A stretch of DNA of 35,724 bases, taken from Acidobacteriota bacterium (GTDB lineage: Bacteria; Acidobacteriota; Terriglobia; Bryobacterales; Bryobacteraceae). Location: assembly GCA_003223115.1 (NCBI GenBank), contig QHXW01000074.1, positions 1 through 35,724 on the forward strand. The letters run 5' to 3'. This document shows, piece by piece, positions 2,382 through 31,753 of this stretch (the first letter of the stretch is position 1; the number at the start of each line of letters is the position of its first letter). Made by a program: the position numbers and the translations under genes. The notes beneath the pieces were generated by a model. The model did no database searches and had not been told where the DNA came from. It saw only the letters and a program-made list of their open reading frames with translations.

Positions 2382-4631
2382 GTGAAGAAGTTTAGCGAAA
2401 TTTCCCCATCGCGGTTGGCCAAACGCTTAATTGGGATCATTGCGGAAATCGTGCTTTTCGGGGCCACCGGAGCCGGGCAGACGCCAGACGCATCGCCGTT
2501 TAGTTTGTCCGACCTTCCCCGACTGAAAACTTTCACGGCCCATCGCGCATCCAGCAACAATCGATTCGTGGGCAGCAACGACGACAGCAAGCGCATCATG
2601 CCGGGTGAGACTTTGGTCATGGCGGATCTTCGCGGGCCTGGAGTCGTGAATCACTTCTGGGTCACAGTGGCCGACAACGAGTACGCCTGGCCCCGCCTGG
2701 TGCGGCTGAGAGTCTACTACGACGGGAAAAAGACGCCCAGCGTAGACGTGCCTCTTGGAGATTTCTTCGGTGTGGGACATGGATACGAGAGGGATCTGGA
2801 CTCCTTGCCCGTCCGCAATAGCTCGTTCGGCCGTGCCCGAAACAGTTACTGGCCCATGCCGTTCCGGCAATCCTGCAAGATCACGGTGACGAACGAAGGT
2901 AACCGGCCGGTAACCGCGTTTTACTACCATGTCGATTGGTAAAGGCACGTGTCCATGCCAGCCGACGTCGCTTATTTCCACGGTTACTACCGTCAGGAGC
3001 GTCCCGCGGTCTCTGGAAAGAACTACGAATTTCTCAACGTCAGAGGAACGGGTCACTATGTCGGCACGGTGCTGAATGTGATTCAGGCGCAGGTCGGATG
3101 GTTCGGCGAAGGCGACGACTTCTTTTATGTGGACGGGGCCAAGAAGCCGCAAATTTACGGCACCGGCACCGAGGACTACGTCAACGAGGCCTGGGGTCTC
3201 CGCGTATCCTACGGCCCATGGAGCGGCACGCCGGTCGCGGAAGGCGAGCGCGTCGGAGCGAGACTCACCGGCTACCGGTGGCACGTTCCCGATCCAGTCC
3301 CATTTACCAAGTCGCTTTGGGCCGGCATCGAGCACGCCGGCTGGACCTACAACCAAGACGGAAGTCTTCGATCCGGCTCCGAAGAACGTCCGGATTACTT
3401 TTCGAGTACAGCGTTCTGGTATCAGAAAAGCGTGAACGAGGACCTCCTCGAGCCGCCGTACGGCGAATCCCGCCTGCCGCTCGGCAATGCCCAACAGATC
3501 GCGGTAGAGGATTGGCTCACCGAGGTCACCGCCGAAAAGGGAAAGGCTTCGGTGCAGAGGGAAGTGGACTGGGGCAAAGACTTGCTGTTTTTCGACGCAG
3601 AGGGCCAGGGCTCTCGCATCAATGTGCCGCTCGATATTCAAGAGGAAGGCCGCTACGAGATTGTCGCCCGCATCGCCCAAGCGCCCGACTATGGCGATTA
3701 CTACGCCCTGCTCGATGGCAAACCCACGAATGTGGACAATAGGCAGGCGGCAACCTCAGAGATACCGTCGACCGGCCCGGAAGTGTTCCACAACTATTTG
3801 CCCGAAATCTACGTTGCGGTGGACCGCCCGCTTGGCTGGTTGGACCTGGAAAAGGGACGGCACACGCTCAGTTTCGTCTGTGTGGGACGGGACGGCCGTT
3901 CGTCCGGCTACAACCTCGGGATCAACGACGTTGTACTGGAAAGGATTCACAGCGCCGTTGCGGCAGCTCCGCAGCCTCCGCCCCCGAGCGCGCTCCAAAC
4001 CGGCGGCATTCTGTTCCGGGGCCGTCCGCTTTCGGCCTACGTGCAACAACTGAGGCACACATCCGGGACGAACCGTGCCGAGGTAATCCGGGCGATCGGC
4101 GCGTTTGGTGAAGACGCCGGCCTGGCAGTCAAGGCAGTGGGAGAAGCCTTTGTCGATCCCGATCCCCATGTTCGGGCGGCTGGCGCGTGGGCTCTCTCGC
4201 AGATAGGAGCCTCCGGTGCATCAGCGATCCCTGTGCTCGAGAAAGCGCTTGTGGACATGAACCCGCGCGTGCGCAGTTTGTCAGCGGTGGCGTTGCGGTC
4301 GATGGGCCCGAAAGCAGTGGATGCCGTTCCCGCCTTAGTGCAGGCCCTGAGCGATCCCGCGGCCTATGTGCGCGCGCCGGCTGCGGATGCCATCGGATCT
4401 GTGGGTCCAGCGGCCAAGGACGCCGTGAAACCCCTAAGCGAGCGGCTGCTGACTACCGGCGAACAAGTATACGTTTTGCGCAGCATCGCTGCCGCGTTGG
4501 GAAACATCGGCCCGGACGCCACCGGCGCTCTGCCAGCCCTCGACCAGGCGCTGAAAATGCATCGCGTCACCTACACCGCTCAGGAAGCCATTCTGAAGAT
4601 CAAAAAGGAACCCGTACCGGCTTGGTTCTGA
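2382..4631 (+). pseudogene. Secreted DUF2961 protein with C-terminal HEAT repeats, interrupted by an in-frame TAA
   Basis: Read as one frame this is a 749-codon gene. It starts at GTG 2382, with AAGAGG just upstream and a signal-peptide-like N-terminus (RLIGIIAEIVLFGATGAG). Residues 45-186 end YYHVDW, then TAA occupies 2940-2942. The same frame continues with RHVSMPADVAYFHGYYRQE, exactly as expected for an unbroken DUF2961 domain. The 3' part includes the family-like GHYVGTVLNVIQAQ and GTGTEDYVNEAWG segments, a second beta domain, and from about base 4050 four to five HEAT-like repeats (DPHVRAAGAWALSQIG, NPRVRSLSAVALRSMG). DUF2961 proteins are linked to glycan degradation; some are now known glycosidases. 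A GTG at 2949 could restart translation but would give a piece lacking a signal peptide and half of the fold. A single C-to-T change from CAA would explain the stop. Confidence 0.85.
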
Positions 4632-15396: not shown

Positions 15397-15612
15397 ATGG
15401 CGAAGTACCTGTTGAGAACTCCTGCATCGGCAATATTGCACAAGCCTGGAGGCCAGAAAGAATCTGTGATGCTTCCAGCAGGGGCGGTGCTCGATGAAGC
15501 GTCCCGACATTCAGCAACTCTTGAGGGCAAGGTTGGCGTCTACTGGGAGGGGCGGCACTACTCGGTTTCCATGAAAGAGCTGATCATGAAAACGGATGTT
15601 AGACGGCACTAG
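15397..15612 (+). CDS. Small hypothetical protein, 71 residues
   Basis: I do not recognise a family. The protein begins MAKYLLRTPASAILHKPGGQ, has no membrane helix or signal peptide, and looks like a small beta-rich cytoplasmic protein (LEGKVGVYWEGRHYSVSMKE). GGGAG lies about 12 bases before the ATG, somewhat far for a ribosome binding site. A strong palindrome sits immediately upstream and the second direct-repeat copy immediately downstream, so the ORF is bounded by non-coding elements. It could be an autoregulated small protein. Coding status is likely but unproven. Confidence 0.5.
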   Translation: MAKYLLRTPASAILHKPGGQKESVMLPAGAVLDEASRHSATLEGKVGVYWEGRHYSVSMKELIMKTDVRRH

Positions 15613-15622
15613 ACAGCGCCAG

Positions 15623-15664
15623 CATCCGCCACGCGCAAGTCTCGGTCCATTGGCTTCCGTGACG
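15623..15664 (+). repeat. Direct repeat copy B flanking the Tad-like locus
   Basis: This is the partner of 13380-13421, with three mismatches in 42 bases and the same orientation. It lies between the small ORF and the 3' end of the broken permease gene. Confidence 0.75.
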
Positions 15665-15698
15665 ACCCGCTGTACCGACGGTGCCTTGAAGCGGAGAG

Positions 15699-18360
15699 TT
15701 ACTCGATCCGCAGCGCCATTGCCGGGTCGATCCGCATGGCGCGATGTCCCGGAAGATCGCAGGCGCCCAGCGCAGTCCCTAGCAGCAGGGCCGCTACCGC
15801 GAAATACGTCAGCAAGTCCAGCGGCTTGATATCCAACAGCAAGGTCGTGAAGTAGCGAGACAGCCACGACGCGCCTACTGCGCCCAGCACGAGGCCGGCA
15901 AGCACAGGACGCATGCCTTGCACGATCGTCATCCGCAAAATGCTGCGGCCGCTCGCACCCAGCGCGAAGCGCAGGCCGATCTCCGATCTGCGGCGGCTCA
16001 TCGAATACGAGCACTGCGTAGATGCCGGTGGTGACCAGCAGTAACGCCAGCCCGCTGAACACGCCGAGCAGAATGGCGTTGAGTCGCTGCGGCGCGACGG
16101 ACCGGTGGACCACTTCTTCGAACGAGCGCACCTCGGCAATCGGCAGATTCGGGTCTAGGCTCGCGACGATCGATCGAACCGTGGGCATCAGGGCGAGCGG
16201 ATTGCCGCGGGTATGAACCACGATCTCGCTGGTGAGCGCGTTCCGGCCGTAAGGAAGGAAGACGGTGAGCGTGGCGCCGGAAGTCAAACCGCGCTCGCGC
16301 ATGTCGCCCACTACACCTACCACCTCCGCATCCAGATTGCTCTGCCCCTTCCACAGAATCGCGTGCTTGCCGACGGGACATTCATCGGGAAAGATCAACT
16401 TCGCCAGCCGCTCGCTGATCACCACGCGGCGTGCAGGGACTGGTTGGCCGCGTTCCGTCCAAACCGGCCTATCTCCTTCATCGAGCAGTCTTCCCTTGAG
16501 TACCGGCAGCCCGATCGGCGAAAATAGCCTGGCGAGACTACGCGCCATCCCGCCCAAGGGACATCGCCCCCGGACAATTGCTGACGGGAACTGGAAGCAA
16601 TTCCCATCCCGGGATTTCCTCCCTCCACCGGCCGATGGCTTACTGCGCCGGCTGATATCACCTGAGGCACCGCCGACAGGCGCGCAAAAAAACCGAGCCA
16701 GAAATTGTTTGCCCGCGCCCTTCTGCCAATAAGAGTTCGGCATGCTCACGGAAAACAGCCGCCGGTTTTCCTTCTGAAATCGGCGATTCACGTTCATCAG
16801 TTGGGTGAAGCTTCGAATTAGCAGGCCGGCTCCAACCAGCAGGAAAAACGAGAGCGCGACTTCGCCGCTGACCAGCACCGCGCGCAGGCGCCCTTGTCCG
16901 CGGCTTCCCGTCTGGCGGTCTCCCTCACGTAACGCGACCGCAATGCCCCTCGCCGGCGCTTGGAATGCCGGAGCCAAGCCGGACAGCATGCCGGTCAGCA
17001 CCGCGATCAGCGCCGTGAATCCCAGCACCCACAGGTTCAACCCGACATCCGCCAACCTCGGTGCGTCGCGGATCTCCAGTGTCTGGATCGTGCGCAGCGC
17101 TGCATACGCCACCGCCAACCCGAGCGCGGCCGCGAATCCGCTGCGTAGAGCGGACTCCATCATCACAAGACGTACCGGACGGGCACGGCCTGCCCAGAGC
17201 CGAGCGCACCGCAATCTCGCGCTTCCGGCTCATGCCGTGCCAATAGCAGGTTAGTTGGCAATGTTCAGGCACGCAATCAGCAACAAGAAGGTGACAGCAC
17301 CCAGTAGCACCCATAGCGCGCACGTCGAGTGGTATCGCTGGCCACCCAGGTGCTTGATAATGATAACTCCATCCTGAACCGATACCTTTGTCGTCCTTCG
17401 GATAGGATTGCGCCAGCACGCCGGCAATGCGCTGCAAGTCGCCTCGCGCGGTTTCCGCCGAGACACCGCGCCTCAGCCTTCCGATCACGTCGAATTCCCA
17501 ACTTGTGCGGTCGGCGTTGGGGCGGAGGCCAAACGGCACGTAGGTTTGGTCATTGATTTTGATCCAAGGATCCCCTGGAGGAAGCACGCCCACCACCGTA
17601 TACACGCGATCGCCCACCCGCAGCGTCTTGCCCAAAATCTGGGGGTCGGCGCCGAGGCGATTCCTCCAAAACCGATTGCCCAGGACCACGACGCGCTGCC
17701 CGGTTCCGTTACCGCCTTCATCATACGAGAAGTCGCGCCCCAGCACCGGCGAAACACCGAGCGTGCGGAAGAACCCCGCGCTCACCTCCATACACGTAAC
17801 TTTTTCCACGGGTCCGTTGCTGGTCAAGGTTCGCCTCGCCGTAATAGTAAGCAGCGACGTCCTCAAACGTCTGGCTCTGCGCGCGCACGTCCCAGAAGTT
17901 GGCTTCGGTGAACGACGCCTGATTGATGCCGCGGTCGTTCCGGGTCTCCCAAATCTGCACCAAGCGGACGCTGTCGCGAAAAGCCAGCGGTTGCACCAGC
18001 ACCGCATAGAAAATGCTGAATACCACGGTGCTCACGCCCATCCCATTGCGAGCGTCAACGTGCCTAGTACGGTTAGCGCCGGATTGCGCCGCAGCGCGCA
18101 TAGCGACTGCCGCAGCTCGGTGGCCATCTGTCCGAATGTGGCGCCAAGGCGAACGTCGCGCACCTTTTCTTTGATCTGCTCCGATCCACCGAGTTCGAGG
18201 TGAGCTTCCCGACGTGCTACGTGTGGGTCCGCGCCGGCCCGTGTCTTCTCGTCTCCGAGCATCGCCTGGTACGAGCGGATCTCCTGGTCGAGGTCTTCTT
18301 CGACGCGCCGTCTGCGCCGAGATTCCACCCCAGCGTTTTGATGCGGTGCCACAACGGCAT
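15699..18360 (-). pseudogene. ADOP-type MacB/FtsX permease, heavily frameshifted
   Basis: Pieces of one protein lie in order but in changing frames: MPLWHRIKTL, then EEDLDQEIRSYQAMLGDEKT (acidobacterial N-terminal helices), ALRRNPALTVLGTLTLAMG, GVSTVVFSIFYAVLVQPLAF (first helix), the periplasmic MacB-type domain (FFRTLGVSPVLGRDFSYDEG, VVVLGNRFWRNRLGADP), ALWVLLGAVTFLLLIACLNI, REIAVRSALG, a second FtsX/MacB half (EVALSFFLLVGAGLLIRSF, PIGLPVLKGRLLDEGD), and the final SEIGLRFALGAS to MRIDPAMALRIE. Breaks are near 18330, 18042, 17828, 17330, 17255, 17195, 16690, 16525 and 16005. The layout is that of the acidobacterial duplicated orphan permease, an ABC-type permease without its own ATPase. With at least eight lesions it is clearly dead, and its decay is older than that of the single-lesion genes. 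Confidence 0.9.
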
Positions 18361-21039: not shown

Positions 21040-22449
21040 CTAGATGTCGTAGTACAGCGCAAACTCGTAGGGATGCGGCCGTAGCCGAATGGCATCAGCT
21101 TCGTTCTTGCGCTTGTAATCGATAAACGTCTCGATCAGTTCTTCGCTAAACACGTCGCCGCGCAGCAGGAAATCGTGATCGTCTTCGAGGCAGTTGAGAG
21201 CTTCCTCGAGCGATGCCGGCATGGATGGCACTCTGGACATCTCTTCCGGAGAGAGGTCGTAAATATCTTTATCAAGCGGCTCTCCCGGATTCAGTTTCTG
21301 CACCACCCCGTCGAGTCCCGCCATCATCATCGCGGCGAATGCCAGATACGGATTCGCTGCAGGATCGGGCGGCCTGAACTCCACGCGTTTCGCCTTTGGA
21401 CTGGCCGAGTACATGGGGATGCGGCACGCGGCCGACCGATTCCGCCTCGAGTACGCCAGGTTCACCGGCGCCTCATAACCCGGCACCAGCCGCTTATAGC
21501 TGTTGGTAGTCGGCGCGATGATCGCGGAAAGCGCTCGCGCATGCTTCAGCAGTCCACCGATGTAGTTCACTGCCAGCGGGCTAAGGCCGGCGTAGCAGTC
21601 TCCCGCGAACAGCGGCTTGCCGCCCTTCCAAAGACTTTGGTGCGTGTGCATACCGCTGCCGTTGTCCGCGAATAGCGGTTTGGGCATGAAGGTTACGCTC
21701 TTTCCGTGTTGGTACGCGACGTTCCGGATGATGTACTTGTACAACATCATGTTGTCCGCCGACTTCACCAGGGTGTCGAACCGCTGATCGATTTCGCATT
21801 GCCCGCCGGTGGCGACTTCGTGATGGTGGCACTCGATGTTCATGCCGCACTTGATCATGGTCTGCACCATTTCGCTGCGCAGGTCCTGATAGTGATCGGT
21901 GGGAGGCACCGGGAAGTACCCTTCCTTGTACCGCGGGCGATAGCCGAGGTTGTTCTCCTTGCGGCCCGAATTCCAGCGGCCTTCCTCGGCATCGATGTAG
22001 TAGTACCCGGAATGCTGATTCTGATCGAAGCTCACATTGTCGAAAATGAAAAACTCGGCCTCGGCGCCGAAATACGCCGTGTCGGCGACACCGGTGTTCT
22101 TCAGGTGGGCTTCGGCCTTCTGCGCAATCCAACGCGGATCGCGCTCATACCGCTGCTTGGTGATCGGATCTTTCACGTCGCCGTACATAACCAGAGTCGG
22201 CGTTTCGGCAAACGGGTCCATGAAAGCGGTATTCGGATCGGGAATCAGGAGCATGTCGCTCTCGTGGATCGCGGCCCAACCGCGAATGCTCGATCCGTCC
22301 ATGCCGAACCCTTCTTCGAAGCTACCGAGTTCCAGCTCGTTAATCGGGTAGGACACGTGATGCTGCAGACTCGGGATGTCGGTGAATCTCAAATCGAGCT
22401 GCTTGGCATCATTCTTCTTGGCAAATTCCAATACTTCTTGCGGACTCAT
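21040..22449 (-). CDS. glnA: Glutamine synthetase, type I
   Basis: This is a 469-residue cytoplasmic enzyme that makes glutamine from glutamate, ammonia and ATP, and normally forms a dodecamer. The usual sections are all present: [78 protein letters not shown] and [19 protein letters not shown]. Tyr397 in [12 protein letters not shown] is the adenylylation site used by GlnE in proteobacteria, at the same number as in E. coli, so control by adenylylation is possible. GGAGG lies five bases before the ATG. It lies downstream of the GlnD-like gene on the same strand, 181 bases apart. Confidence 0.95.
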
Positions 22450-22630
22450 GTCGCCTCCAAACTTGATATCGTAATCCCGCTATGAGAGCTAGGCGAACAA
22501 ATTCTTTCTATGGCTCCGATAAACAACACTGTTCGGCCCTGCCGTGCGGGATCAGGCCAACCGTCGCCAGTTGTTAAGCCTGCTCATAGGTAATGCTGCG
22601 GCGCCCGCTAAAGTGGCGATTCGGTTCGAT
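22450..22630 (-). other. glnA leader region
   Basis: These 181 bases separate the glnD-like stop from glnA. I see the glnA ribosome binding site (GGAGG) but no convincing sigma-54 or sigma-70 promoter and no clear riboswitch. Confidence 0.4.
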
Positions 22631-25096
22631 CTAACAAACCGAAATCAGCTTCTCTTTGAGCATGGTTTGCAGTTCCGCCGACAGCTTTCGGCCATCGCGC
22701 GCCACGTAAAACACATCGATCGCACGGTGACCTTTGGTGTCGATGAGGACCGTGTCGATGTTACAGGCGCTCGAGGAAAAAACCATCGCCAGGCTATAGA
22801 GCAGCCCCGGCCGGTCATCCGCCACAATTTCCACCAGGGTTGCTGTGGCGCACGCTTCTGAATCAAACTGCACTTGCGGACTGTGGGCCCGCTTGCGCGA
22901 GCCAGGCTGAGACACGTTGCGCATCAGCCGCTGGGCATCCGTCTTGCCGAGAGCGACGCGCTGTACCAAATCCTGGAGCCGTTCGACTTCCGAGGGATTC
23001 AGTTGGAGCATGCGTTTGGGATCGGCGAATACGAAGGTATCGAGAACCAGTCCGTTAACGTTCGAGAAGGCTTCCGCCTTCAGAATATCCATTCCGAAAC
23101 TCGTGATGGCGCCCGCGAATGACGCAAACAGCGAGGGCCGGTCCCGCGCCACTATAGTCAACCGGTGCGCAGCTTCAATCTCATCCAGTTGCACTGCCAC
23201 GCCGGTCGGGCGGCTGAGTTCGAACAGCCGCAGATGCGCCTCGATTTCACCGGGAGTGCGCGCGCGTAAATAGCGCACCGGGAAACCCTTGATGAACCTC
23301 GCGCTTTCCGGAAGGTTGCCGGGCACCTGCTGGATGCGGTCGGTTTCAAGTTCACGCGTCAGCTCATGGTTGATGGCTGAATATGCGCGCGAAAGTTGTT
23401 CCAGCCGCCAGGGAGTCAGGGCTTCGGAATTGGCGGCCGAAATATCCGCGTACGTAAACACGGAAAGCAATTTCAACAATTCCACCGTTCCAACCCGGTC
23501 GGCAAGCGCGCGGGCGGCAGCGGGATCATCCAGATCGCGCCCGGTCATGGCCGTGGCCAGATCGTGCTGATGCTCGATGAGGAACTCGACAGTGCTCCGG
23601 TCTTCGGCATGCATTTGAATGCGTGCCATGGCTGCCCGCGCGTGCTTCGCTGCAATCCCCAGAGGGTCGCTCCCGCCGCTTCCCGTTTCATGAAACAGAA
23701 GCGCGAACAGCAAAAGCGCCGGGTTATCGATTTCGGAGAGCAACTCTGAAAATCGCTGCCGCGTTGGATCCGTCAATGCCGGCAATCCGGCGACACATTC
23801 GATTGAGCTGAGGGTGTGCTCGTCCGCCGTGTAACGGTGTTCAGGGTCCGCCACCGGCAAGTCCTGGATATCAGTCCACTCGGGAAAAAGAGCCGTGAGC
23901 AGTCCGGTGTTCTCGAGAGCCCGCAGCGCCAGCGCCGCATGAGGACACCGAAGGATGCTCTTGAGCTCAGACCACAGGGGCTGAGGTTGGGCACAATACT
24001 CGGCGAATAAAGCATAGGCTGTTTCCAGCCGCCGCTCGGTTTCGTGCGCCATCTGAATCCCGTGCCGCGCAACGAACTCGAGCAGCCGGAAGACGATTGC
24101 CGGATCGGTATCGAGCTGCGCCGGGTTACGCAGGAGCACTCGGTCGCGCGAGACCGTAAATTCTCCATTCGAGAGCCGGGTGCGATACTCGCGGAAGTTC
24201 TCGAGCAGCGAATTGTGGGTCCTCTCGGATGCGTCTAGCGCTCGGCGCGCCTCGTTGAAGATCATGCGCGCGTTGCGAAGGTACTCGCGCATCCACTCGG
24301 CCGGTTTCTTGCTGGACACGAAGGCCTGCTGGGCGAGACTGTGCTGGGCGTCGAAATGGAGCACATTCTGGTCCTGCCCAGCTTGGTAATGGAGAAAGCT
24401 GCGCGCCGAGGATGGAAGCTCGCCGGACGGTTTGAGCTTCTCACTGGACGAACGGTACTCCGGGTTGAGCTTGGCCAGCCAGTCGATCAAACTCAGATCG
24501 CCGAGACCCCCCGGTGCCTCTTTCACGTCAGGCTCCAGGTGATGGCAGGTGTTCTGATACTTGGCGTGGCGCGTTCGGGCTGAGTGAGAGATGTGCTGCC
24601 TGATTTCGCGCGCGTGCTTCAACAACACAACTGGCAACCTGGCTTCGAGCCTGGCGTCAAGCGCTCGATCGCCTGCAAGAAAGCGGCGGTCCAGAAGGTT
24701 GACGATGAGTTCTAGGTTTTGCTCGCGCGTATCCAGGCATTCGGCGAGCGTCCGCGCTGTGTAGTTCAGCCGCAGTCCTGCATCCCAAAGCAACCGGGCG
24801 AAGCGGGCCAGTGCGCCCTTCACCGGCTCGGACTGCGCATTGCGCTCGAGAAGAATTACCAGGTCCGCAGCGGAGTAAGGAAAGATTTCACGCCGGCCGT
24901 ATGCTCCGACCGCCAGCATTTCCGCGGATTCCGGACAGACCGGCTGGATCGATGCGCCATACGCCTGCCGGACGATGGCATCGGTCGCCTCCGTCAGTCC
25001 GCTCAGAACGCCGGCCGCGCGGCCGGTCGCGAGAAATTCATCCTCTATCCGGCGCCAGGCGTCACTCGACTGCAGCTTCTCTGGAACCGTTTCCAC
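22631..25096 (-). CDS. GlnD-like protein with degenerate nucleotidyltransferase and HD sites, and two ACT domains
   Basis: I place the start at GTG 25094-25096 (VETVPEKLQ), giving 821 residues; the longer open frame adds residues unlike the family and has no good start. The order of parts is that of PII uridylyltransferase GlnD: nucleotidyltransferase at about 60-200, helical linker with HHLEPDVKEAPGGLGDLSLI, HD domain at about 440-570, and ACT domains at about 643-715 and 750-820 (VARDRPSLFASFAGAI, VADDRPGLLYSLAMVF). The catalytic SDxD of the first domain reads SAAD (75-78). The HD pair reads His-Glu (469-470, FHETGSG), and the Asp-His-Ser that should follow is missing. ACT domains, which sense glutamine in GlnD, look normal. 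The protein may be a sensor without enzyme activity or act on something else. Confidence 0.85.
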   Translation of the reverse strand: METVPEKLQSSDAWRRIEDEFLATGRAAGVLSGLTEATDAIVRQAYGASIQPVCPESAEMLAVGAYGRREIFPYSAADLVILLERNAQSEPVKGALARFARLLWDAGLRLNYTARTLAECLDTREQNLELIVNLLDRRFLAGDRALDARLEARLPVVLLKHAREIRQHISHSARTRHAKYQNTCHHLEPDVKEAPGGLGDLSLIDWLAKLNPEYRSSSEKLKPSGELPSSARSFLHYQAGQDQNVLHFDAQHSLAQQAFVSSKKPAEWMREYLRNARMIFNEARRALDASERTHNSLLENFREYRTRLSNGEFTVSRDRVLLRNPAQLDTDPAIVFRLLEFVARHGIQMAHETERRLETAYALFAEYCAQPQPLWSELKSILRCPHAALALRALENTGLLTALFPEWTDIQDLPVADPEHRYTADEHTLSSIECVAGLPALTDPTRQRFSELLSEIDNPALLLFALLFHETGSGGSDPLGIAAKHARAAMARIQMHAEDRSTVEFLIEHQHDLATAMTGRDLDDPAAARALADRVGTVELLKLLSVFTYADISAANSEALTPWRLEQLSRAYSAINHELTRELETDRIQQVPGNLPESARFIKGFPVRYLRARTPGEIEAHLRLFELSRPTGVAVQLDEIEAAHRLTIVARDRPSLFASFAGAITSFGMDILKAEAFSNVNGLVLDTFVFADPKRMLQLNPSEVERLQDLVQRVALGKTDAQRLMRNVSQPGSRKRAHSPQVQFDSEACATATLVEIVADDRPGLLYSLAMVFSSSACNIDTVLIDTKGHRAIDVFYVARDGRKLSAELQTMLKEKLISVC

Positions 25097-25226
25097 AGCG
25101 TACCCACTCCCACAAATAGGCTGCTCCAAGCCTCTAGTATCACGCAGCCGGCACGCGGCTGAAAGCTGGATTCTCTTATGAGCGAAATCCAAATTATCTA
25201 TCGGCCGAGGCCGCCGTTGAAATAAA
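25097..25226. promoter_or_regulatory. Divergent intergenic region between the GlnD-like and Amt genes
   Basis: About 130 bases separate the divergent starts and must hold both promoters. AT-rich stretches lie at about 25178-25200 (AAATCCAAATTATCTATC) but no hexamer pair is convincing. Confidence 0.4.
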
Positions 25227-25415
25227 ATACGGATTATCAAACTCATAGCCATTTTCTTGTTGGTATCCGGGTGGGTTATCGTGCTGGCTGCAGTGGCCCT
25301 TCTGGCACCGGGACCGTTGAGGGGCGGTTTTGCGCTGGCGGGCATCGGGGTTGAAATCGCCGGACTGGCAATTATGTTTCGTTCTCACCTAACCGCACCG
25401 GGGAACGGGAAGTGA
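25227..25415 (+). CDS. Small hydrophobic ORF overlapping the Amt start
   Basis: A frame that ends in TGA 25413-25415 encodes up to about 62 residues with two likely membrane helices. The first runs IKLIAIFLLVSGWVIVLAAV and the second GGFALAGIGVEIAGLAIMF, with a short basic end. Its stop overlaps the GTG start of the Amt gene as GTGA, a sign of translational coupling. There is no ATG or GTG at the front. ATA 25227 or TTG 25257 are the available starts, and no ribosome binding site is visible, so the 5' end may be altered. No family is recognised. A small membrane partner of the transporter is a reasonable guess only. Confidence 0.4.
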   Translation: MRIIKLIAIFLLVSGWVIVLAAVALLAPGPLRGGFALAGIGVEIAGLAIMFRSHLTAPGNGK

Positions 25416-26704
25416 CTGCTGCACCACTGTCGGATACAGCCAGAGTTTTCTGTTTTCTGTTGATCCTCATGGTGCCGTGCGCCGGCGCCGGGATCGCCCT
25501 GATCAACACCGGGTTGTGCAGGTCGCGAAACTCGGCTCATTCCATTCTCAGTTCGCTTTGCGTGATCGCCGTGGCTGCCCTCGCGTATTTTGCCGTGGGA
25601 TTCTCCTGGCAGGGGTACCCCGGCGAGGCGAGCCACGCGTTCGTCATTGGCGGCAAGACCTGGGACTGGATCGCCGCGGGGCGGTTTTTCCTGCGGGACG
25701 TGCGGTTCGATGGTTCTCCACATTCGCTGGCTGCGCTCTATGGATTGTTCGCAGCCGGTGTGGCGGCGATGATTCCCTTGGGTAGCGGCGCCGAACGGTG
25801 GCGCCTGGGCGCAAGCTGTGCTTCGGCAGCCATGTTGGCGGCCTGGACTTACCCTTTGTTTGCGCACTGGGCTTGGGGCGGAGGCTGGCTCGCGCGACTC
25901 GGGCAAATCGGTGCGCTTGGCAGCGGGTTCGTGGATTGCGGCGGAGCCGGCTCCATCCACGCGGTTGGTGGATTAACTGCTCTGGCCATCGCGTGGATTC
26001 TGGGCCCGCGCCGGGGAAAGTACACTCCCAAGAGTATGCCGGCCGCCATTCCGGGACACAACACGGTCCTGGTTCTGTTCGGCTGCTGGCTCGCCTGGTT
26101 CGGCTGGCTGGGATTGGATTCGGCCGGTGCGATCCTGTTCGCGGGGATCGAGCCCAGGCGTACAGTTTTGGTTGCGCTGAATATCACGCTGTCGGCCGCC
26201 TCGGCAGCACTGGTGGCGGCGAGCATTACACGCACCCGTTTTGGCAAGGTCGACAGTTCGCTCTGCGCCAACGGCTGGGTTGCCGGACTGGTGGCCGCGA
26301 GCGCCGGCTGCGCGGTGATGCGGCCCGCTGCTGCGGTTCTCGTTGGCATCGTGGGCGGCGCTTTGGCGATTTATGGCATCGAGTGGCTGGATCTTCATCT
26401 CTCGCTCGACGATACGACTGGAGCCATTCCGGTTCACGGGGGCGCAGGCCTGTGGGGCCTGATGGCGGCTGCTCCGCTTTCGGCTGAGCCCGTTGCCGGA
26501 CAATGGCTGGCTCAACTCGTGGGCGTCGCGACGTTGATTGGCTTCGTCCTGCCGCTCACGTTCGGGCTGAATTGGCTGTTGGATCGCTTCTACGGTCTCC
26601 GCGTGGCCCCAGAGGCCGAGCGCCAGGGTCTGGATCTCTATGAACTCGGCGCCGGCGCCTATCCGGATTTCTTGAGCCACCCCGATGACACCTGGCTGCG
26701 GTAG
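25412..26704 (+). CDS. Ammonium transporter-like protein (Amt/Mep family), atypical
   Basis: This is a 430-residue polytopic protein with about eleven helices and the Amt layout. FVDCGGAGSIHAVGGLTAL carries the conserved Asp and the first pore His of AmtB. DDTTGAIPVHGGAGLWGL carries the second pore His. The stretch GWLAWFGWLGLDSAG corresponds to the conserved central helix. Several invariant-looking positions differ: CGGAGSIH where AmtB has AGGTVVH, and INTGLCRSRN near the start in place of the usual YAGLVR. Amt proteins conduct ammonium or ammonia across the inner membrane, and their partner is normally a PII protein, which is not in the window. The start GTG 25412 overlaps the small upstream ORF. 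The gene ends 30 bases before the convergent kinase gene. Confidence 0.85.
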   Translation: MTAAPLSDTARVFCFLLILMVPCAGAGIALINTGLCRSRNSAHSILSSLCVIAVAALAYFAVGFSWQGYPGEASHAFVIGGKTWDWIAAGRFFLRDVRFDGSPHSLAALYGLFAAGVAAMIPLGSGAERWRLGASCASAAMLAAWTYPLFAHWAWGGGWLARLGQIGALGSGFVDCGGAGSIHAVGGLTALAIAWILGPRRGKYTPKSMPAAIPGHNTVLVLFGCWLAWFGWLGLDSAGAILFAGIEPRRTVLVALNITLSAASAALVAASITRTRFGKVDSSLCANGWVAGLVAASAGCAVMRPAAAVLVGIVGGALAIYGIEWLDLHLSLDDTTGAIPVHGGAGLWGLMAAAPLSAEPVAGQWLAQLVGVATLIGFVLPLTFGLNWLLDRFYGLRVAPEAERQGLDLYELGAGAYPDFLSHPDDTWLR

Positions 26705-26734
26705 CCTGGGGGCGAATCAGAAATCGGGGAATAT

Positions 26735-27703
26735 TCAACCGTGCCGCGCAACGAACAGCAACAACCCGAAAATGATGATCGGAATCAGCGCCATCGCCAC
26801 ATAGAATAGAATGCGTTTCGCCCAAGGTGTTCGCCGGTGCTTCCAATTGTGCAGTTCGGGCCGGTCGTCAATCCCGACCTCATCTAAATGCTCCAGGTCC
26901 CAGGCAAACTCGTTGGCTGTCGAGTAGCGGTTCTGCGGCTCGCGCTCTAGCGCCCTGTAAATGACTTCCTGAAGCTGGGGCGAAATCGCGGGATTCAATT
27001 CACGTGGCGGGACCGGATTGTTCAACAAACGGTCATTCATGATGGCGAACGGATTCGGCCCGACAAACGGGGTCTTTCCTGTCAACATCTCGTACAACAT
27101 GACTCCCAGAGCGTAAATGTCGCTGCGCCCATCGCCCCGTTTTCCCTTGACCTGTTCCGGTGAAATGTAATCAGGAGTTCCCAGGACTTGCGACAGTTTG
27201 GCGAAGGTCAGGCGCCGTGCGCCCAACTTGCCGGCAATGCCAAAGTCGATCAGCTTGATGCGATCGTCGCCGTCGATCATGATGTTCTCCGGCTTCAGAT
27301 CGCGATGCACCACGCCGTTCCGGTGAATGTAATCCAGTGCGTCGCTGATCGCAATCGCGATGCGCCGTGCCCGTTCGACCGGCAGCTTTCCGGCCTCGGC
27401 CAAAATCTGGCGGAGCAGGCGGCCCTCCACCCACTCCATCACCATGTAGACCCGGCTGCGGTCTTCATTCGCGAACACTTTCATCACGCCGGGGTGATCG
27501 AGTTTTTCGCCGATTTCCGCCTCGCGCTGGAAGCGTTCGAAAAGCACCGGGTCCGATTCCATCTCCGGATGCGGAACCTTGATCGCGACCTGGCGGCCGG
27601 TACGTAGGTCGGTGGCTCGAAAAATGGAGGCCATCCCGCTGCGGGCAACGACCGCCTCAACACGGTAGTGGTCGAGTTGGTCGCCGGGATGTATTGGTGT
27701 CAT
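26735..27703 (-). CDS. Membrane-anchored Ser/Thr protein kinase with altered P-loop
   Basis: This is a 322-residue Hanks-type kinase: Lys42 in AIKVPH, Glu61 in FQREAEI, HRDLKPEN with Asp135, DFG at 153-155, and APE-like SPE at 181-183. A single membrane helix at about 297-318 (ILFYVAMALIPIIIFGLLLF) follows the kinase, with only about four residues beyond it, so no periplasmic sensor is present. The glycine loop is unusual: VARSGMA where GxGxxG is expected, so all three usual glycines are changed. The gene follows a PP2C phosphatase by 36 bases in the same direction, the standard kinase-phosphatase pair. Activity is not proved; ATP binding may be weaker. Confidence 0.9.
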   Translation of the reverse strand: MTPIHPGDQLDHYRVEAVVARSGMASIFRATDLRTGRQVAIKVPHPEMESDPVLFERFQREAEIGEKLDHPGVMKVFANEDRSRVYMVMEWVEGRLLRQILAEAGKLPVERARRIAIAISDALDYIHRNGVVHRDLKPENIMIDGDDRIKLIDFGIAGKLGARRLTFAKLSQVLGTPDYISPEQVKGKRGDGRSDIYALGVMLYEMLTGKTPFVGPNPFAIMNDRLLNNPVPPRELNPAISPQLQEVIYRALEREPQNRYSTANEFAWDLEHLDEVGIDDRPELHNWKHRRTPWAKRILFYVAMALIPIIIFGLLLFVARHG

Positions 27704-27739
27704 GAACGCCGGGAGAGCAAGAAGGCAGGGCGGGCTGAA

Positions 27740-28540
27740 TTAGCGGAGCTTATAAAGCCGCCCACGATACATACCGACACGTTCCACGCTCTGAATACGG
27801 ACAAGCTGAACGCTTACATTATCACCGCCGTCCCGCTCATTCGCAAGCGCTACAAGCTTCTGCACAGCGGCTCCGAGATGGATCGATGGGCCGGTCAGCG
27901 TGGCGATCTCGGACGCGGAGACAGAGTTGTGAAGGCCATCGCAGCACAGCGCCAGCACATCGTTAGGAAAAATTTGATGCTCGCTGGTCTCGACGTTGAG
28001 GAACAGGCCGCTTCCAAGCGCCCGGCTGAGAACATGACGCGTGGAAGCTTCGGCCGCCTCTCTGGCCGAAAGAAGCCCCAGACCAGCCTGATCTTCCGCA
28101 ACGGTATGATCGCGCGTCAGCAGCCGGGCCTGACCGTCACGGACAAGGTAGCAGCGCGAGTCCCCGGCGTGAGCGGTGACAGCACGGTCGTACCGCAATC
28201 CGCAGGCCACGATCGTAGTGGACATGGCCGAGCCGCCGGGACCGGCCTTCCTTGCGAGATCGTAGACATGTGCGTTGGCGTCTCGAACCAGGCGCACCAG
28301 CAGTGTGCCGAGTGGTTCTGGGGTGGGCGCCGCCCGAAAACCCGACAGCAGATGTTCCACTGCGGCATGGGAAGCGACCTCGCCACGATCGTGTCCGCCT
28401 ACGCCATCGGCCAGAGCAAAAAGCCAACCACGCGAGCGCGCGTCTTCCGGCGTGGCTGGCTGGACATAGCCAAGATAGTCCTCGTTGTTGTCGCGCAGCC
28501 GTCCGGGATCGGAGAACTGGGCGAAATCAACATCCAGCAT
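27740..28540 (-). CDS. PP2C-type Ser/Thr protein phosphatase
   Basis: This is a 266-residue cytoplasmic phosphatase. Metal-binding motifs are all present: RDNNED near residue 17, ADGVGGH, GDSRCYLV, CDGLHN and DGGDNVSV. It should reverse phosphorylation by the kinase encoded just downstream, with which it is probably co-transcribed. It follows the APC permease gene by 60 bases on the same strand. Confidence 0.93.
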   Translation of the reverse strand: MLDVDFAQFSDPGRLRDNNEDYLGYVQPATPEDARSRGWLFALADGVGGHDRGEVASHAAVEHLLSGFRAAPTPEPLGTLLVRLVRDANAHVYDLARKAGPGGSAMSTTIVACGLRYDRAVTAHAGDSRCYLVRDGQARLLTRDHTVAEDQAGLGLLSAREAAEASTRHVLSRALGSGLFLNVETSEHQIFPNDVLALCCDGLHNSVSASEIATLTGPSIHLGAAVQKLVALANERDGGDNVSVQLVRIQSVERVGMYRGRLYKLR

Positions 28541-28600
28541 GAGTCGAGCGCCCCCCGGCTGCTCTGGGGCGTAGCGAGCGCTCTTGCAAGTTTACTCTCG

Positions 28601-30403
28601 CTAGGCAGTCTCGAAGCGTTGCGGCACCAGCGTCGTTCGGCCCTTTGCCTTACTGGCCCGGAGAAAATAAATACCGCCGTAGAGGGCCCAGACCAAGGCT
28701 ATCCCCAAAGCCAGCAGTGGCTCCTTCACCGTGCCGAAACCCATGAACGGCCCGACCAGGTAAAACGCCATGCAACCCAGATTGGCAACGAGTCCGAACA
28801 GCGGGATGGCTAGATGGCGCAACGGCTTGAAATTCGGATGCTTGTGGTAGGCGACAAGGCAGATGATACAGCTCAGCCCGTACAGCAGGAATGTCCCGAA
28901 GTTCGAAGCCAACGTCATCGTGAGTAGAGTATTCGGTAACGCCGCCATCTGGTCGTGAGTCGTGTATCCGAAGCTCGAGAACAAGCCCTGCGGCAAGGCT
29001 TTGATATCGACATCTTTCGGGGCCCCTGCATCTCCGAACGCTACCGCCACCGAGAGGCAGCCGACCACAGCCGAAATGACAGCCAACGTCCAAATGGCGC
29101 GGTGCGGAGTCAGACTCTTCGAATGCAGGATGCCGAAGTGTTCCGGCACCTCCTGGTCCTTCCCCATGGCGTAGGTGACGCGCGCGCCGGTGTTCATGCA
29201 CGATAAGGTGGTGCCGATGAGCGCCAGGAACACAGTGAATGCCTGGATCAGCATGAAGGTACGCCCATTTCCCGGGCCAAACAGCGCATTACCGACTACC
29301 ACCATCATGTCGCCCAGGGGAGCGGCGGAACCCGAGGCGCTCTGCATGCTATAGCCGCTGTTCAGAAAATAATTCGCCGCGAAATATTCGAACAGGTAAC
29401 AGAACATCCCCTGCACCAGCAGTGAGACAATCACCGCGATGGGCACGTCGCGTTTTGCGTTCTTAGCTTCGCCACCCATGGCGGTCACCGATTCGAATCC
29501 GACCAGAATTAGAATCGCAACCGTGGCTTGCACAAAGACCCAGCCCCAGTTGTGAGGCGCGGGTACGGATGACGCAGTCGGATGAGTGAGGAAGTTACCC
29601 TTGTCATCCTTTTCCGGATAGCTGATGCGAAATGGTACTGGCTGCCCGGCCGCGTCCAGCTTGGGCTTGGGCACGCCGTTGGCATCGCGCACGATGGTGT
29701 CGGTGGTCTGCCCGTTCGCCGTAACAGGTTGGGTAAGGAACTCATAGGTATAAGCGTCGCTCGATACGGAGTCGAATTGATACGCAATGCTCCCTGGCGG
29801 GTGATTCATGCGGTATCCTAGCGCAAGAACTGAGAAAACCACGAGCGCGCTGATCTGAATGACATTGATGGCCACGTTGACCGCGGTCGAACCATTGACG
29901 CCGCGCGACGCAATGTAGGCCACCACGAAAGAGAACACCACCGCCACTAGCATCATGAAGAGCGGCCCCGGAGTGGAAGCACTCATCACGTTCGGCCACA
30001 GTGATCCCACCAGGTAGCCACACAGAACACCCATCACGCCCACCATCACGCCCGGATAGATCCAGTAGTAAAGGTGCGAGCCCCAGCCTACGATGAATTT
30101 CGAAAGCCGGGCGTAGCGCCAAGCCTTATCGTGGTTGAGGAACGCTTGTTCGGCGAAGTAATAAGAACTACCCGTGCCGGGATACAACTTCGCCAGTTCC
30201 GCGTAACATACGGCCGTCGCGAGGCAAAGCACCAAGGCGAGCACGATACCCATCCACATGGATGGCGCGGTAACACCCGTGGTGGCCTGGATGTAGAACG
30301 TGAGCCAAAGGAAGGCACCGGGAGCGATGAGCGCCATCGCATTCATCGTGAGACCGGTCAATCCCAAAGTCGGCTGCATTTTGACTTCGGCGTTATCAGG
30401 CAT
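28601..30403 (-). CDS. APC-superfamily amino-acid/amine permease with a large hydrophilic insertion
   Basis: This 600-residue permease has about twelve helices. The APC core features are seen: GLTGLTMNAMALIAPGAFLW in helix 1, and ILILVGFESVTAMGGEAKNA in helix 6 with the following loop. It carries a hydrophilic segment of about 85 residues (about 205-290; YEFLTQPVTANGQTTDTIV, FRISYPEKDDKGNFLTHP) between two helices, longer than in typical members, probably a periplasmic loop. Substrate is unknown; the family exchanges or symports amino acids or amines. AGAGGG lies about seven bases before ATG 30403. A porin gene lies 66 bases upstream in the same direction, so the pair may carry one substrate across both membranes. 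Confidence 0.85.
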   Translation of the reverse strand: MPDNAEVKMQPTLGLTGLTMNAMALIAPGAFLWLTFYIQATTGVTAPSMWMGIVLALVLCLATAVCYAELAKLYPGTGSSYYFAEQAFLNHDKAWRYARLSKFIVGWGSHLYYWIYPGVMVGVMGVLCGYLVGSLWPNVMSASTPGPLFMMLVAVVFSFVVAYIASRGVNGSTAVNVAINVIQISALVVFSVLALGYRMNHPPGSIAYQFDSVSSDAYTYEFLTQPVTANGQTTDTIVRDANGVPKPKLDAAGQPVPFRISYPEKDDKGNFLTHPTASSVPAPHNWGWVFVQATVAILILVGFESVTAMGGEAKNAKRDVPIAVIVSLLVQGMFCYLFEYFAANYFLNSGYSMQSASGSAAPLGDMMVVVGNALFGPGNGRTFMLIQAFTVFLALIGTTLSCMNTGARVTYAMGKDQEVPEHFGILHSKSLTPHRAIWTLAVISAVVGCLSVAVAFGDAGAPKDVDIKALPQGLFSSFGYTTHDQMAALPNTLLTMTLASNFGTFLLYGLSCIICLVAYHKHPNFKPLRHLAIPLFGLVANLGCMAFYLVGPFMGFGTVKEPLLALGIALVWALYGGIYFLRASKAKGRTTLVPQRFETA

Positions 30404-30469
30404 TCAGAATCCCTCTCAATCTGTCGTTTATTGAAGCGGACTACATTTTCTGTTTCGCGTATACCTTCG

Positions 30470-31627
30470 TTATTTCTGGGGAGCGATGTACGCCACTAGT
30501 CCCAGCAGAATCGTGGGTTGGTTCTTTGAAGTGCCGCTGTCCTTTTGGAAGAACGGCTGATTCGACCCGTCATTTCGGAACTCCAGCCTGGTCATGAGCC
30601 AGTTCGTCATCTTGTATTCGCCGGTCAGCGTACATTCTTTTACGGTCTGGGCGACGCCGGTGGAAAAGCCATCGATATCGTCGAACAACTCCAGGCGGCC
30701 GGCAATGGCGTACTTCCTGCCAATCGCGTAGCGCGCGGCCCTGGCAATACCGGTCCCCTGCTGCGAGCCTGATCCGATATTCTTGTCGCGGCCGTAATCA
30801 AAGTTGATGTAATAGCTCAGCTTGTCGTTGGCGTTAACCAGTATCGTGGTGTCGTAGAGATTACGGATGCCGGTATTGGTACGACTTTCTTCGGGGCCGA
30901 CATAGCAGACGTTACTCCACGTCACCTTTTTCCAGGCATAAGCGCCAGTGAGCCCCACGGTTTTGCCGCTGTTGTTGTCGTAGATATTGTTCCATCTCTG
31001 AACTACGTGAACGCCTCCGGCCAAATGCGGGCCGATCGGGAATGAGGAGCGGATTCCGAAGTGGTAATACGGAATGGCCCTGGAGAACAGCAGCGGCCGC
31101 GAGTAGTTCCAGTTCTGGTTGGTCTCGATGACCTTAGCTCCAGCCGAAGTCACGAACTCTCCGGCGTCTATCTGAAGACCATGCCACGATTTGGGCTTGA
31201 GACTCATGTACGCCTGCTCAAAATACTTGAATGCCTCGGGAGCCCGGTCGGTGGAGTGGATTACGTCGAATGTCTGGCCGAAGCCGACATCCAGGTGAAA
31301 TCCGAACGGCGTCGGCGCGTGATCGATCGTGATCTTCCCCATGTTGACGTGCGCCGTGTCCGCGCGAAAATCAAAATTGCGGAGCTGGTTAAATCCAGAA
31401 TCCGAATGATTGAAATTCCCATCCACGTAACCGTCGAACAGGAAACTGAAATCCGTGCCCCGTTGAGTCAGGGGCGACTTAGGAGTTGGCGCGGCTGCGG
31501 CGGCCGGCGTTTGAGTAGACTGCGTCTGTGGGACAGGTACTGCATCCGCCTGTTGCTCCTGTGCCAAAACCACGCCCGTAACTACAAACGCACCGACAAT
31601 CGTAAGCGCGATACACCTGGTGCGCAT
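30470..31627 (-). CDS. Outer-membrane beta-barrel porin (PF07642-type)
   Basis: The start is ATG 31625-31627, with AGAGGAG six bases upstream, giving 385 residues with a signal peptide (RCIALTIVGAFVVTGVVLAQ). A Pro/Gln/Thr-rich linker follows, then repeated amphipathic strands with aromatic ends (FSFLFDGYVDGNFNH, FGFHLDVGFGQTFDVIH, WLMTRLEFRNDGSNQPFF). The general form is that of the acidobacterial/Bacteroidetes-like barrel family PF07642, which often has EYKMTNWLMTRLEFR near the end as here. It is probably a passive or substrate-selective porin co-transcribed with the adjacent permease. Confidence 0.85.
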   Translation of the reverse strand: MRTRCIALTIVGAFVVTGVVLAQEQQADAVPVPQTQSTQTPAAAAAPTPKSPLTQRGTDFSFLFDGYVDGNFNHSDSGFNQLRNFDFRADTAHVNMGKITIDHAPTPFGFHLDVGFGQTFDVIHSTDRAPEAFKYFEQAYMSLKPKSWHGLQIDAGEFVTSAGAKVIETNQNWNYSRPLLFSRAIPYYHFGIRSSFPIGPHLAGGVHVVQRWNNIYDNNSGKTVGLTGAYAWKKVTWSNVCYVGPEESRTNTGIRNLYDTTILVNANDKLSYYINFDYGRDKNIGSGSQQGTGIARAARYAIGRKYAIAGRLELFDDIDGFSTGVAQTVKECTLTGEYKMTNWLMTRLEFRNDGSNQPFFQKDSGTSKNQPTILLGLVAYIAPQK

Positions 31628-31753
31628 TGACACTCCTCTTCTCGTGAAGTTTGAAACAACGCAGGCGCGCTTACGTGGCGTGCCGTACAACAAAAACGTG
31701 CCTTACAAATTGGAATAGGTTTACTGTAATCCTTCTTATGCGTGGACGCTAAT

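Follow-up and report, generated by a model that had tools for sequence, protein, structure and literature searches.

In canonical GlnD, the N-terminal domain is the uridylyltransferase (UTase), the HD domain has the uridylyl-removing (UR) activity and the balance between the two is set by glutamine; PII is the only known substrate according to PMC4285133. The GlnD-sm2 protein of S. meliloti, which lacks the N-terminal domain, is unable to modify PII; its authors infer an action of GlnD that is independent of PII (PMC3596328). The plant ACR proteins carry ACT repeats with no recognisable catalytic domain, as described in PMC6081435. In acr11 the activity of glutamine synthetase (GS) is unchanged, GS has been doubted as the target and the target of ACR11 is presented as disputed (PMC12702975).

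The soil bacterium considered here and its relatives carry a second copy of GlnD in which the catalytic sites have decayed and the presumed glutamine-sensing part has been retained. The window, by which we mean the whole 35,724-nucleotide stretch of DNA that was analysed, is the entire contig C404 of a 9.1 Mb genome in 594 contigs. Within it the gene, designated pseudo-GlnD (GlnD*), occupies 22631-25096 on the minus strand and encodes 821 residues, as judged by translation of the open reading frame, the TIGR01693 profile and alignment. The start codon is GTG with GGGAG upstream, and an in-frame ATG lies at 25345. The overall homology and architecture are those of a GlnD: the NCBIfam profile TIGR01693 matches residues 23-819 (411.1 bits, 1e-122) and PF08335 also matches. 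The score falls below the TIGR01693 cut-off of 519.4 bits, which is not decisive, as the intact GlnDs L048, L041 and L046 score 515.1, 505.6 and 481.9 bits; the interrupted canonical GlnD of the source genome is also under the cut-off (417.9 bits). Pseudo-GlnD is 26% identical to E. coli K-12 GlnD (L096), 45% identical to the canonical GlnD of its own genome and 45-47% identical to L049 and L048.

Alignments and the structure model place the nucleotidyltransferase (NT) core, the seat of UTase activity in GlnD, at 24668-24925 (approximately residues 58-143; all domains lie on the minus strand), and alignment places the HD domain, in which HD has become HE and residue 510 is Gln instead of His, at 23417-23911 (approximately residues 396-560). 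Both C-terminal ACT domains are present by alignment and model: ACT1 at 22892-23182 (approximately residues 639-735), which is below the Pfam cut-offs, and ACT2 at 22640-22891 (approximately residues 736-819), which alone passes in Pfam (PF01842, 28.2 bits; cut-off 27). The predicted structure is confident along almost all of the chain, with a mean pLDDT of 86.0 and a pTM of 0.69; pLDDT drops below 50 only at residues 582-592. Its fold matches are entries named as a tRNA processing enzyme, CCA-adding enzymes, GlnE domains and ACT proteins; a sequence search for a solved GlnD structure for comparison gave no matches.

The residues of the SDxD and HD motifs have roles in catalysis, and both carboxylates are required in the nucleotidyltransferase fold. 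The SDxD pair is absent from pseudo-GlnD, where SAAD (24863-24874, minus strand) stands opposite the SDVD of the E. coli protein, and His-Glu (23687-23692, minus strand) stands opposite the His-Asp of LFHDIAKG. An earlier, sequence-only reading of this DNA had picked out both replacements at these positions, and the minus-strand DNA and the E. coli alignment agree with it. The same reading took the Asp-His-Ser that follows the HD pair to be missing; this holds for the His, which is Pro, and for the Ser, which is Leu, but the Asp remains (in SDPLG), with alignment gaps nearby. Its broader claim that both sites are altered proved to understate the change. GGYGR has become GAYGR, the Ser of GHSVRT is Thr and the Arg of PGGLRD is Gly. 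In the HD site, three of the six residues are retained; HDxxK has Ser in place of its Lys, and VRQH has Gln in place of its His, with other histidines adjacent (IEHQHDL). A misalignment that would leave the catalytic Asp residues elsewhere was ruled out by the flanking stretches GxYGR..PYS and LLFH, which anchor both sites.

An alignment with related GlnDs, which the sequence-only reading had proposed as a check, revealed that the relatives of pseudo-GlnD form a conserved clade of site-degenerate GlnDs. The sequence was searched against 150 genomes of the order, and a ten-member profile against 237 genomes of the family (E <= 1e-200). From the motifs of the best matches, degenerate copies are present in at least 18 of the 237 family genomes, one per genome, a lower bound given that every family match above 1,010 bits was inspected and below that a sample. 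Seventeen copies are full length; that of G150 (L132) is partial, split between two overlapping frames where its contig ends, and was excluded from the trees. The occurrence of degenerate copies in 17 further genomes rules out an artefact of a single contig. The copies are monophyletic both in an 83-row tree with the ten members then known (SH-aLRT 100) and in a 43-row tree with 17 members (SH-aLRT 99), and the clade has an SH-aLRT of 87 in a tree built from the linker and ACT domains only, without the catalytic columns. Its closest relatives are GlnDs with intact sites. An intact sister of this kind is the sole match at E <= 1e-200 in nine genomes (G006, G051, G076, G107, G230 and G234-G237), and G091 and G133 each combine an intact copy from this group with a degenerate one. 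At the search thresholds used, there was no degenerate copy in G135, which is of the same genus and 98% complete. A search of 399 genomes of the class returned no match outside the family at E <= 1e-280, a threshold that a divergent member could miss. The searches also brought up a GlnD that does not belong to the degenerate clade and has two TAG codons in frame (L024, G129:C531) and a GlnD 42% identical to pseudo-GlnD (L191) in a record titled as a Bordetella parapertussis MAG, perhaps a mislabelled acidobacterial bin.

Site residues were tabulated for 17 degenerate and 80 other GlnD rows of one alignment, excluding the partial G150 row and E. coli; rows were classed as degenerate by inspection of their motifs, and the counts therefore describe the group, the linker and ACT tree being the independent test. 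The first N-terminal Asp is present in three of the 17 clade members, the second in 15 and both in two (L038 and L044), against both in 79 of the 79 other rows that cover this stretch; GG together with both Asp residues is found in one member (L044) and in 79 of the 80 others. None of the 17 has all six HD-site residues, compared with 79 of 80 other rows. Residue by residue, the Asp of the HD pair is kept in two members (80/80 others), the His of DHS in none (79/80, the exception being Pro in L066), the His of VRQH in none (80/80) and the Asp of TVADI in five (80/80). The ACT Asp residues are retained in all 17, including pseudo-GlnD. Loss of the HD site is thus universal in the clade and loss of the N-terminal site nearly so, with replacements that vary among members. 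The changes in pseudo-GlnD are not chance variation, because both N-terminal Asp residues are present in 79 of the 79 other rows that cover them and all six HD-site residues in 79 of 80.

All 18 genomes with a degenerate copy have another GlnD, and the N-terminal motif was seen in 17 of these partners; the partner in G247 starts at a contig end, with its N-terminal site outside the contig, and has Pro for the His of DHS. Counting the G247 sequence (L228), two GlnDs that otherwise look canonical have Pro at this position, the other being L066 (G112). The sequence-only reading had raised the questions of whether the source genome holds a second, normal GlnD and whether its PII has Tyr51, and both can be answered in the affirmative. 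The second GlnD (G000:C468) has SDVD and an unchanged HD site (LFHDVGKG...EGH), and directly before it lies a PII gene whose product has the T-loop GQEYNVDLL, with Tyr51 present. As assembled, this glnD (L001) lacks approximately 37 bases near 3041-3052 and has a frameshift in ACT1 relative to L138 of the same genus, which may be an assembly error or a real lesion. C561 carries another PII gene, likewise with this Tyr, behind what appears by eye to be an Amt gene. Ser49 of PII as a kinase target was ruled out, since both PII proteins have Gln at this position. By eye, C98 carries an apparent GlnE. The source genome has four genes of the glutamine synthetase family; the stretch IYDLSPEE, in which the adenylylated Tyr of E. 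coli lies, is retained in the GlnA of the pseudo-GlnD locus and in the C98 copy.

The distribution of constraint along the protein was compared between the 17 members, 11 intact sister rows and 66 other rows (L001, L024, L047, L096 and L132 excluded). Among the members the mean pairwise identity is 44.0% in the NT domain, 51.0% in the middle domain, 51.0% in the HD domain, 65.6% in the linker, 69.7% in ACT1 and 72.6% in ACT2. The corresponding values are 63.8, 62.5, 68.0, 68.3, 67.1 and 67.8% for the sister rows and 48.2, 46.7, 52.4, 46.8, 52.8 and 54.5% for the others. When pairs are matched at 65-75% ACT identity, the NT domains are 40.0% identical within the clade (87 pairs), as opposed to 66.7% for 25 sister pairs and 60.3% for 114 pairs of the other rows. 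The catalytic domains of the clade have therefore drifted relative to the linker and ACT domains. Values of dN/dS were calculated by NG86, where a dS above 1 in the window/G243, window/G211 and other pairs is near saturation. Six degenerate pairs gave 0.16-0.24 for the whole gene, 0.20-0.29 for the catalytic part and 0.10-0.14 for the linker and ACT domains. Three intact sister pairs gave 0.08-0.12, with a contrast between catalytic and ACT parts as strong as that in the degenerate pairs, and three canonical pairs gave 0.15-0.23 with a weaker contrast. The degenerate GlnDs are under purifying selection over their whole length, and the body of pseudo-GlnD is a folded protein under selection, not debris. 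The ACT identity of the clade is above that of the canonical partners, but only at about the level of the intact sister rows. Because of this, and because the dN/dS contrast is equal in the sister pairs, what sets the clade apart is relaxation of the catalytic part rather than additional constraint on the ACT part.

The gene next downstream of pseudo-GlnD, on the same strand, is glnA, which encodes a type I glutamine synthetase (21040-22449, minus strand; TIGR00653, 658 bits), and an Amt-family ammonium transporter gene (Amt2; 25412-26704, plus strand) diverges from it. This arrangement, beside glnA and divergent from an Amt gene, had been described in the sequence-only reading, and gene order and profile matches concur. 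Beyond Amt2 there follow, all on the minus strand, genes for a Ser/Thr protein kinase (26735-27703; PF00069), a PP2C-type Ser/Thr phosphatase (27740-28540), an APC amino-acid permease (28601-30403; PF13520) and a BBP2 or OmpL-like outer-membrane porin (30470-31693; PF07642). A cassette of this make-up (21040-31693 in the window; L209-L221, L225 and L227 elsewhere) is patchy in the family and comprises the APC permease, PP2C, often the Ser/Thr kinase and BBP2 porin, Amt and sometimes glnA. Among the 18 degenerate copies, an Amt2-type Amt gene is within the fetched stretch in 11, the permease or PP2C is within the fetched stretch in 11 (one of them a fragment at a contig end) and glnA adjoins the degenerate glnD in seven (G000, G016, G077, G150, G211, G214 and G215). 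A scan for sigma-54 promoters gave 53 loose matches in the whole window against 63 expected, which is no usable signal. Two sigma-70-like sites were found with 0.8 expected; one, at 25351-25378, lies upstream of Amt. A scan of the window gave no useful terminator. Elsewhere in the window, the overlapping frames at 15511-18352 (minus strand) appear by eye to be a single broken gene for a MacB/FtsX-like permease.

We consider that pseudo-GlnD is probably a GlnD paralogue without catalytic sites, retained as a glutamine-responsive regulator that acts by binding. The sequence-only reading had doubted UTase activity and suggested that the protein only senses glutamine or works by binding; the second GlnD with unchanged sites, the degenerate clade, the purifying selection and the shift in constraint all support that suggestion. 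We infer that glutamine binding by the ACT pair persists, that UTase and UR activity are absent and that the signal leaves the protein through protein contact. A GlnD freed from catalysis beside an active GlnD would have been retained for a regulatory end; unable to modify PII, it could still alter its conformation in response to glutamine and bind a partner. As candidate partner we rate PII first, because it is the only known GlnD substrate (PMC4285133) and because an active GlnD is present as competitor; proteins encoded by the neighbouring genes rank after it. The dead GlnD would bind PII and leave it unmodified, competing with the active GlnD as glutamine changes. The retained ACT domains could also serve dimerisation or partner contact rather than glutamine.

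Pseudo-GlnD might instead act directly on the cassette and not via PII, for example as a glutamine-sensing adaptor of the Ser/Thr kinase, the PP2C phosphatase or the transporters. Its company gives this some appeal: an Amt2-type Amt gene shares a contig with the degenerate copy in 12 of the 18 genomes. Both transporters are also enriched in the genomes with a degenerate copy: 14 of these 18 have an Amt2-type Amt at E <= 1e-120, compared with 36 of the 219 others (Fisher p 1e-7, kinship ignored), and 15 have the cassette permease at E <= 1e-200, compared with 40 of the 219 (Fisher p 3e-8, kinship ignored). However, there is no cassette within 5-7 kb on either side of the degenerate copies of G014, G091 and G216, although G014 has one 13-17 kb away; the G091 copy has PII and a different Amt gene (32% identical) alongside, and the G077 and G150 copies are on short contigs that show only glnA. 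Moreover, most genomes that have the cassette have it without a degenerate GlnD. Twenty cassette stretches were picked by hand from the Amt and permease matches, one from G014 and the remaining 19 from a set of 18 genomes where the searches found no degenerate GlnD. Of these 19, 15 have Amt, permease and PP2C on one contig with no GlnD, two (both from G234) have the cassette parts on separate contigs and two (G147 and G184) have Amt without the permease. The cassette does not need pseudo-GlnD, because it occurs without it in many genomes; pseudo-GlnD is a frequent guest of this nitrogen-uptake cassette and not an obligate part. We regard direct action on the cassette as unlikely. A more elaborate scheme, in which pseudo-GlnD as a non-catalytic glutamine sensor would gate the Ser/Thr kinase and PP2C and thereby ammonium and amino-acid uptake, with nucleotidylation giving way to phosphorylation signalling and the dead enzyme serving as adaptor, seems more doubtful again.

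A weak or one-way activity might also have been retained: the UR site would have gone first, leaving UTase alone, and some members would still be transferases. The pattern of loss would fit, with HD-site loss and loss of the VRQH His in all 17 members while the second N-terminal Asp persists in 15 of 17 and both in two. Against this, pseudo-GlnD itself has Ala at the first N-terminal Asp, its GGYGR motif reads GAYGR and the PGGLRD Arg is replaced by Gly; residual transferase activity strikes us as improbable. Decay towards loss as a pseudogene would account for catalytic motifs that vary by member as though unconstrained, for the two overlapping frames of the G150 copy at its contig end and for whole-gene dN/dS values above those of the intact sister pairs, yet those values are like the ones for canonical pairs. 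Seventeen full-length open frames, well conserved ACT domains and low dN/dS even in the catalytic part speak against decay, as does the whole-gene dN/dS (0.16-0.24), which leaves a pseudogene the least credible of the alternatives and very unlikely indeed. The reading we favour remains a catalytically dead GlnD that would be kept for binding.

If natural and selectively maintained, a GlnD without its sites would uncouple glutamine sensing from catalysis, and it would put the PII-independent roles reported for GlnD to a natural test. For annotation, second GlnD genes of the degenerate type in this family should not be named uridylyltransferases. Among the matches listed in the open-licence literature, none described a GlnD pseudoenzyme occurring naturally in bacteria. 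Pseudo-GlnD shares with canonical GlnD its length, the order NT, middle, HD, ACT, ACT and the ACT Asp residues, but differs in that both catalytic sites are degenerate; it is a GlnD homologue that fails two defining features of the enzyme. GlnD-sm2 of S. meliloti resembles it in being unable to modify PII, according to PMC3596328, but is a laboratory truncation, whereas pseudo-GlnD is a second copy that exists in nature and has lost its sites in a point-like manner. The plant ACR proteins, such as ACR11, likewise have GlnD-like ACT repeats without catalysis and are tied to glutamine synthetase or GOGAT in PMC3173338, PMC4944146, PMC6081435 and PMC12702975; in contrast to these proteins, which have no recognisable catalytic domain, pseudo-GlnD keeps the whole GlnD body, including the NT and HD domains, and has lost the sites alone. 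Among the matches listed, the plant ACR proteins and S. meliloti GlnD-sm2 are the closest precedents.
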